Position numbers and translations under genes: made by a program. From Candidatus Nitrosocosmicus sp. (GTDB lineage Archaea > Thermoproteota > Nitrososphaeria > Nitrososphaerales > Nitrososphaeraceae): a stretch of 38,173 bases of DNA. The stretch spans positions 1 through 38,173 of the forward strand of contig JAPSGR010000017.1 of assembly GCA_031177355.1 (NCBI GenBank), given 5' to 3'. Below the pieces are notes generated by a model. The model made no database searches. It was not told the DNA's origin and saw only the letters and a list, made by a program, of their open reading frames with translations. The first letter of the stretch is position 1; every line of letters begins with the position of its first letter. Shown here piece by piece: positions 11,364-35,599 of the stretch.

Positions 11364-11490
11364 TGCGGTCACCGGGATTTGAAGTCCCGCTTTGTCTATA
11401 TTAAAAGACAAAGTCCCGGGTTACGGGCTTTCTCCATATAGATAATATACATGGAAGGCCAGTGTCCTAACCAAACTAGACGATGACCGC
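11364..11490 (-). tRNA. tRNA-Gly(UCC) with two introns
   Basis: The acceptor stem is a perfect seven pairs (GCGGTCA with TGACCGC), followed by D-arm GTCT...GGAC and anticodon loop CTTCCAA, giving anticodon UCC. Two insertions must be removed. Intron 1 (11430-11451, 22 nt) lies at the canonical 37/38 position. Intron 2 (11384-11414, 31 nt) lies in the T arm after position 53; its removal restores CCGGG-TTCAAAT-CCCGG. Both form bulge-helix-bulge structures. For intron 2 the central helix is CCCG/CGGG, the bulges are GGA and ACT, and the inner helix is CTTTGTC/GACAAAG. For intron 1 the central helix is CTTC/GGAG and the inner helix GTATA/TATAT. The anticodon stem keeps one U-C mismatch. CCA is not encoded; the discriminator is A. 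Confidence 0.92.
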
Positions 11491-11578
11491 AACAACAATT
11501 CTTCTTATTTATTCTGATATTAACTTTTCCAATATCGGAAAAAGTAATAATACCTAGAAAGGTTAGTATAGTTAAATC

Positions 11579-35499: not shown

Positions 35500-35599
35500 G
35501 CCCGGGTAGTATAGAAATGCACTGATGTGCGTTGTAAAGTCCGGTCCAGTATGGGGGACTGTCACTCCCTTGACCCGGGTTCGAATCCCGGCCCGGGCG
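35500..35599 (+). tRNA. tRNA-Asp(GUC) with an intron in the D-loop
   Basis: The acceptor stem GCCCGGG/CCCGGGC is perfect, the anticodon loop is CTGTCAC (anticodon GUC), and the T arm is CCGGG-TTCGAAT-CCCGG. The D-arm (GTAT/GTAT) is split by an insertion of about 23-25 nt. The best bulge-helix-bulge reading takes central helix TATA/TGTA, bulges GAA and AAG, and inner helix ATGCAC/GTGCGT with a TGAT loop, so intron 35516-35538. That leaves a rather long D-loop of 13, so the exact cut could differ by one or two bases. CCA is not encoded; the discriminator is G. Confidence 0.94.

Follow-up and report, generated by a model that had tools for sequence, protein, structure and literature searches.

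A tRNA-Gly(UCC) gene of Candidatus Nitrosocosmicus with two predicted introns, one of them in the T arm, shared across the Nitrososphaeraceae

A tRNA-Gly(UCC) gene in Candidatus Nitrosocosmicus sp. (Nitrososphaeraceae, Thaumarchaeota), a soil ammonia-oxidising archaeon, is interrupted in both the anticodon loop and the T arm, which raises the question of whether both interruptions are introns and whether the gene is the one that supplies this tRNA. The locus occupies 11364-11490 on the minus strand of the window, that is, of the whole 38,173-nt stretch of DNA that was analysed. We are close to certain that it is the sole Gly(UCC) gene found in this genome, with introns at 37/38 and 53/54 that would be excised by an alpha-beta splicing endonuclease and exons that would be joined by RtcB.

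The gene can be read on the minus strand as three exons and two introns. Exon 1 (GCGGTCATCGTCTAGTTTGGTTAGGACACTGGCCTTCCA; 11452..11490) provides the acceptor 5′ strand, the D arm, the 5′ strand of the anticodon stem and the anticodon loop to A37, and is followed by intron 1 (tgtatattatctatatggagaa; 11430..11451), which is 22 nt long, sits at the canonical position 37/38 and carries a complete bulge-helix-bulge (BHB). Exon 2 (AGCCCGTAACCCGGG; 11415..11429) contributes A38, the 3′ strand of the anticodon stem, the variable loop and the 5′ strand of the T stem. Intron 2 (actttgtcttttaatatagacaaagcgggac; 11384..11414), 31 nt long and with a relaxed motif, lies in the T arm at the noncanonical position 53/54, and exon 3 (TTCAAATCCCGGTGACCGCA; 11364..11383) adds the T loop, the 3′ strands of the T stem and acceptor, and the discriminator A73. 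Removal of both introns yields a 74-nt tRNA with a seven-base T loop and a standard T stem (CCGGG-UUCAAAU-CCCGG). The tRNA identity, the UCC anticodon, the two introns and their boundaries had all been proposed in an earlier note on this DNA; they proved exact to the base, relatives without the introns confirm the junctions, and the note's explanation by archaeal splicing is supported too. The mature 5′ end is preceded, 26-39 bases upstream, by a promoter-like element of the BRE/TATA type (GAAAAGTTAATATC; 11516..11529, minus strand) that may direct transcription of the gene; the related AAAGTTTAATATC or AAGATTTAATATC is found at about the same distance upstream in most family members.

ARAGORN reported no tRNA anywhere in the 38,173-nt window, and the Rfam tRNA model scored the unspliced gene at 26.4 bits, under its cut-off of 29. 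After both introns were taken out of the sequence, ARAGORN called tRNA-Gly(tcc). The earlier note had advised a BHB search; an exhaustive splice-rule run, in which all cut pairs that form a 4-bp central helix and leave 2 bp or more of intron helix were enumerated singly and paired, arrived at the same pair of introns as the clear best solution. The rule allowed 19 candidate introns, and this pair ranked top with a score of 49.75, the next reaching 39.5. The score of the spliced Gly(UCC) falls among those of the genome's intronless class I tRNAs (46-54), and none of 2,000 dinucleotide shuffles matched 49.75 (best, 43.75). When each intron was permuted, the 4-bp central helix formed at frequencies of 0.6% and 0.25%.

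The two splice motifs differ in completeness. Intron 1 begins one base 3′ of the anticodon and forms the canonical arrangement of a 3-nt bulge, a 4-bp helix and a 3-nt bulge; its central helix consists of C32-G, U33-A, U34-G and C35-G, with the anticodon stem as the exon-side helix, and all four pairs are present in 23 genomes. Two equivalent registers of this intron give an identical mature RNA, and the splice rule picks the one given in the earlier note. For intron 2 the boundary is unique in the Candidatus Nitrosocosmicus sp. genome once the mature sequence is given. Its 4-bp exon-intron helix (CCCG/CGGG), with cuts after the second bulge base, recurs in 23/23 genomes, next to an intron helix that is 8 bp long here and 2-10 bp across the set. 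It has no stable exon-side helix: one exon-side pair only is available in all 23 genomes, and the 3′ splice site does not lie in a closed bulge. Thus, the description of both introns as BHB introns holds in full for intron 1, and the boundaries of both stand, whereas intron 2 has a relaxed motif in place of the complete one; for noncanonical introns, hBH/HBh′ motifs of the relaxed type are recognised as valid (PMC4090602). Energy folding did not favour the BHB fold of the precursor (−34.1 versus −52.9 kcal/mol), but these energies carry little weight because the cloverleaf of the mature tRNA was not predicted either (−25.3 versus −32.3 kcal/mol).

Nearly every relative within the family yielded the gene in a whole-genome search, and the loci of 23 genomes were parsed by exon anchoring. 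Mature sequences have a mean identity of 0.993 (99.3%) and a minimum of 95.9%; the means for introns 1 and 2 are 0.598 (59.8%) and 0.692 (69.2%), and their lengths range over 18-42 nt and 23-33 nt, respectively. Exon 1 is identical in 19 of the 23 family members, exon 2 in 22 and exon 3 in all 23. The central helix is complete for both introns in every genome: the intron 1 bases that pair with U33 and U34 alternate between U-A and U-G (GGAG, GAGG, GAAG), the exon remaining unchanged, and the intron helices still pair with different bases. As judged from these alignments, splicing and the mature tRNA are both under selection.

Natural empty sites bear on the T-arm insert directly. Intron 2 is exactly absent and intron 1 kept at eight loci of g28, the second widely sampled genus, which includes Nitrososphaera (L104, L105, L108-L112 and L114); intron 1 is exactly absent and intron 2 kept at L107 of the same genus, and other g28 loci retain both. 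Two further families of the order have neither intron (L061 and L087). Whatever the intron state, the junctions read CTTCCA-AGCCCG and CCGGG-TTCAAAT or differ only slightly from these. Sequence and comparison establish the gene, its boundaries, its conservation and its empty sites. It is highly improbable that the 37/38 insert is the sole intron and that the T-arm insert is retained as an extended T arm. The T-arm insert has CGGG at its end, and this could replace the T stem by pairing with CCCG, as in the minimum-energy fold, but orthologues that lack the insert restore CCGGG-UUCAAAU-CCCGG exactly, the sequence of the insert varies along with its 23-33-nt length while the splice motif is retained in 23/23 genomes, and introns at 53/54 are already known (PMC4090602). 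Nor do we find it at all likely that the T-arm insert arose by recent insertion of a mobile element with a target-site duplication and is not an established spliced intron. The presence of CGGGACTT at both ends of intron 2 would suit such an event, but most of this repeat is explained by the need for the intron end to pair with CCCG, and the intron is old in this lineage, as several genera of the family carry it with interiors that have diverged. A search of the Candidatus Nitrosocosmicus sp. genome for intron copies at unrelated sites returned short chance matches only.

The earlier note had held that another intact Gly(UCC) gene would speak against the spliced-intron reading; none was found in this 2.32-Mb, 97%-complete genome, in which tRNA-Gly(GCC) and tRNA-Gly(CCC) are present and both intronless. 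In G005, G007 and G013, three genomes of the genus that each consist of a single contig, the exon-1 pattern matches exactly once per genome. It is therefore scarcely credible that the locus is a pseudogene, randomly interrupted twice, and that another Gly(UCC) gene does its work, as the ARAGORN miss and the low Rfam score might suggest, when no second gene was found here, the exons are near-invariant over 23 genomes with variable introns, and the splice-rule geometry is preserved throughout. A sole gene for its anticodon, with exons under purifying selection, is what a functional tRNA-Gly(UCC) would look like. Among 17 open reading frames of the window, GGA is used more often than any other glycine codon (154/348), and the tRNA should therefore be essential; the Gly(GCC) and Gly(CCC) tRNAs would not be expected to read GGA. 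Thus, a gene that is probably essential was missed here by a standard tRNA finder. One observation counts against the overall reading: positions 1501-1624 of L059, from the genome G012, hold a copy of the Gly gene that looks degenerate, its stems altered and its upstream element conserved; no intact Gly(UCC) copy was found in that 84%-complete assembly.

A U28-C42 mismatch in the anticodon stem had been described as leftover and unusual. That it results from splicing is contradicted by the intronless orthologues L061 and L087, which have it as well. Because these two and 23/23 family genomes share the mismatch, it belongs to the mature tRNA and, from sequence comparison, is an old feature of it in this lineage.

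How would the two introns be removed? Two tRNA_int_endo genes are present in the genome. The product of one, a 182-aa protein, aligns over its length with the Sulfolobus and Aeropyrum pernix catalytic subunits and keeps the Tyr, His and Lys residues of these solved enzymes. The product of the other lacks the catalytic His, as expected of a structural subunit. Lys37 of the 182-aa protein aligns with A. pernix K44 in the Crenarchaea-specific loop, a residue needed for broad substrate specificity (PMC6379350). By sequence, the pair thus has the features of an alpha-beta endonuclease with CSL, namely Tyr/His/Lys plus the loop Lys in alpha and a beta subunit without the complete catalytic set, and an alpha2-beta2 endonuclease type has been assigned to Thaumarchaeota (PMC4090602). 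The putative enzyme resembles the A. pernix alpha-beta heterotetramer in its full-length alignment of the catalytic subunit, loop lysine included (PMC6379350), and differs in being thaumarchaeal and from a soil lineage. RtcB is also present (E = 1.4e-169), and the enzyme and ligase genes, like the tRNA gene, can be regarded as established by sequence and comparison.

We infer from these genes that splicing occurs, and by which enzymes. The alpha-beta endonuclease would cut each intron at two bulges flanking the 4-bp exon-intron helix, and the GGA-reading tRNA of 74 nt would then be made by RtcB-catalysed joining of the exons. As the motif of the T-arm intron lacks an exon-side helix, its removal would need relaxed endonuclease specificity, and the predicted enzyme complement agrees with such an intron at 53/54.

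As the outgroups lack introns, the most economical history would be that an ancestor of the Nitrososphaeraceae gained both introns and that separate losses followed; the two introns are kept in nearly all sampled Nitrososphaeraceae, and one genus has lost each of them separately. In a class-wide scan for 53/54 introns adjoining the CCGGG stem, nearly all sampled Nitrososphaeraceae were positive. The same scan, whose pattern favours glycine tRNAs by construction, also recovered 53/54 introns in the tRNA-Gly(GCC) genes of G189, G200 and G036, three genomes that belong to other families, and a fourth tRNA-Gly(GCC) case was seen by eye (G027). A further class-wide scan, by a gene pattern, missed the Gly-UCC genes of f9, the largest other family in the order. 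It is conceivable, although we would put it no higher than a tentative suggestion, that 53/54 is a recurrent insertion hot spot of tRNA-Gly, with retention perhaps aided by a functional role or by an obligatory processing order in which the T arm matures only after splicing. The tRNA-Gly(GCC) loci with a 53/54 intron in other families are L158, L159, L160/L063 and L065, and L063 has a 37/38 intron as well.

The background given in the earlier note, that multiple and noncanonical tRNA introns are known in some archaea, is borne out by the literature: 53/54 is among the known noncanonical insertion points, and canonical and noncanonical introns co-occur (PMC4090602). Such introns, with BHB or relaxed motifs, are best described in Thermoproteales and other Crenarchaeota, whereas the gene described here is thaumarchaeal. 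Thaumarchaeota have themselves been described as having noncanonical introns (PMC8450103; PMC3218864), with 107 in thaumarchaeal genomes analysed with tRNAscan-SE 2.0 (PMC8450103). In Caldiarchaeum subterraneum, 3 of 45 tRNA genes have multiple introns, and noncanonical introns occur in the D, V and T arms (PMC3293823); our gene shares with that organism the multi-intron structure and the noncanonical T-arm intron, but the multi-intron tRNAs there are Leu, Glu and Thr, not Gly. In the literature searched, no paper was found that names the tRNA-Gly(UCC) intron pair or its family-wide conservation, and no specific paper on tRNA introns of Nitrososphaera or Nitrosocosmicus. The gene adds to a known class, as the 53/54 position and thaumarchaeal noncanonical introns are already published, and it leaves the general picture of archaeal tRNA splicing unchanged. 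What it offers is a natural series (both introns, either or none) within one tRNA, in which relaxed-motif recognition outside hyperthermophiles and intron gain and loss can be tested.

Other tRNA genes of the genome are interrupted as well, according to an intron census that is rough for class II tRNAs and serves as context only. The best splice solutions for tRNA-Asn(GUU), tRNA-Phe(GAA) and tRNA-Pro(GGG) (L020, L024, L028) place introns in the anticodon stem, so that noncanonical introns are common in this genome. Within the window, tRNA-Asp(GUC) (35500-35599, plus strand) has a D-arm intron of about 23-25 nt; Rfam matches positions 7-64 only, and ARAGORN misses the gene. D-arm introns are also seen in tRNA-Gln(UUG), tRNA-Glu(UUC), tRNA-Glu(CUC) and tRNA-Arg(CCU) (L030, L032, L033 and L029, respectively), and the similar places of those in the Asp, Gln and both Glu tRNAs suggest a shared or repeatedly used insertion site.
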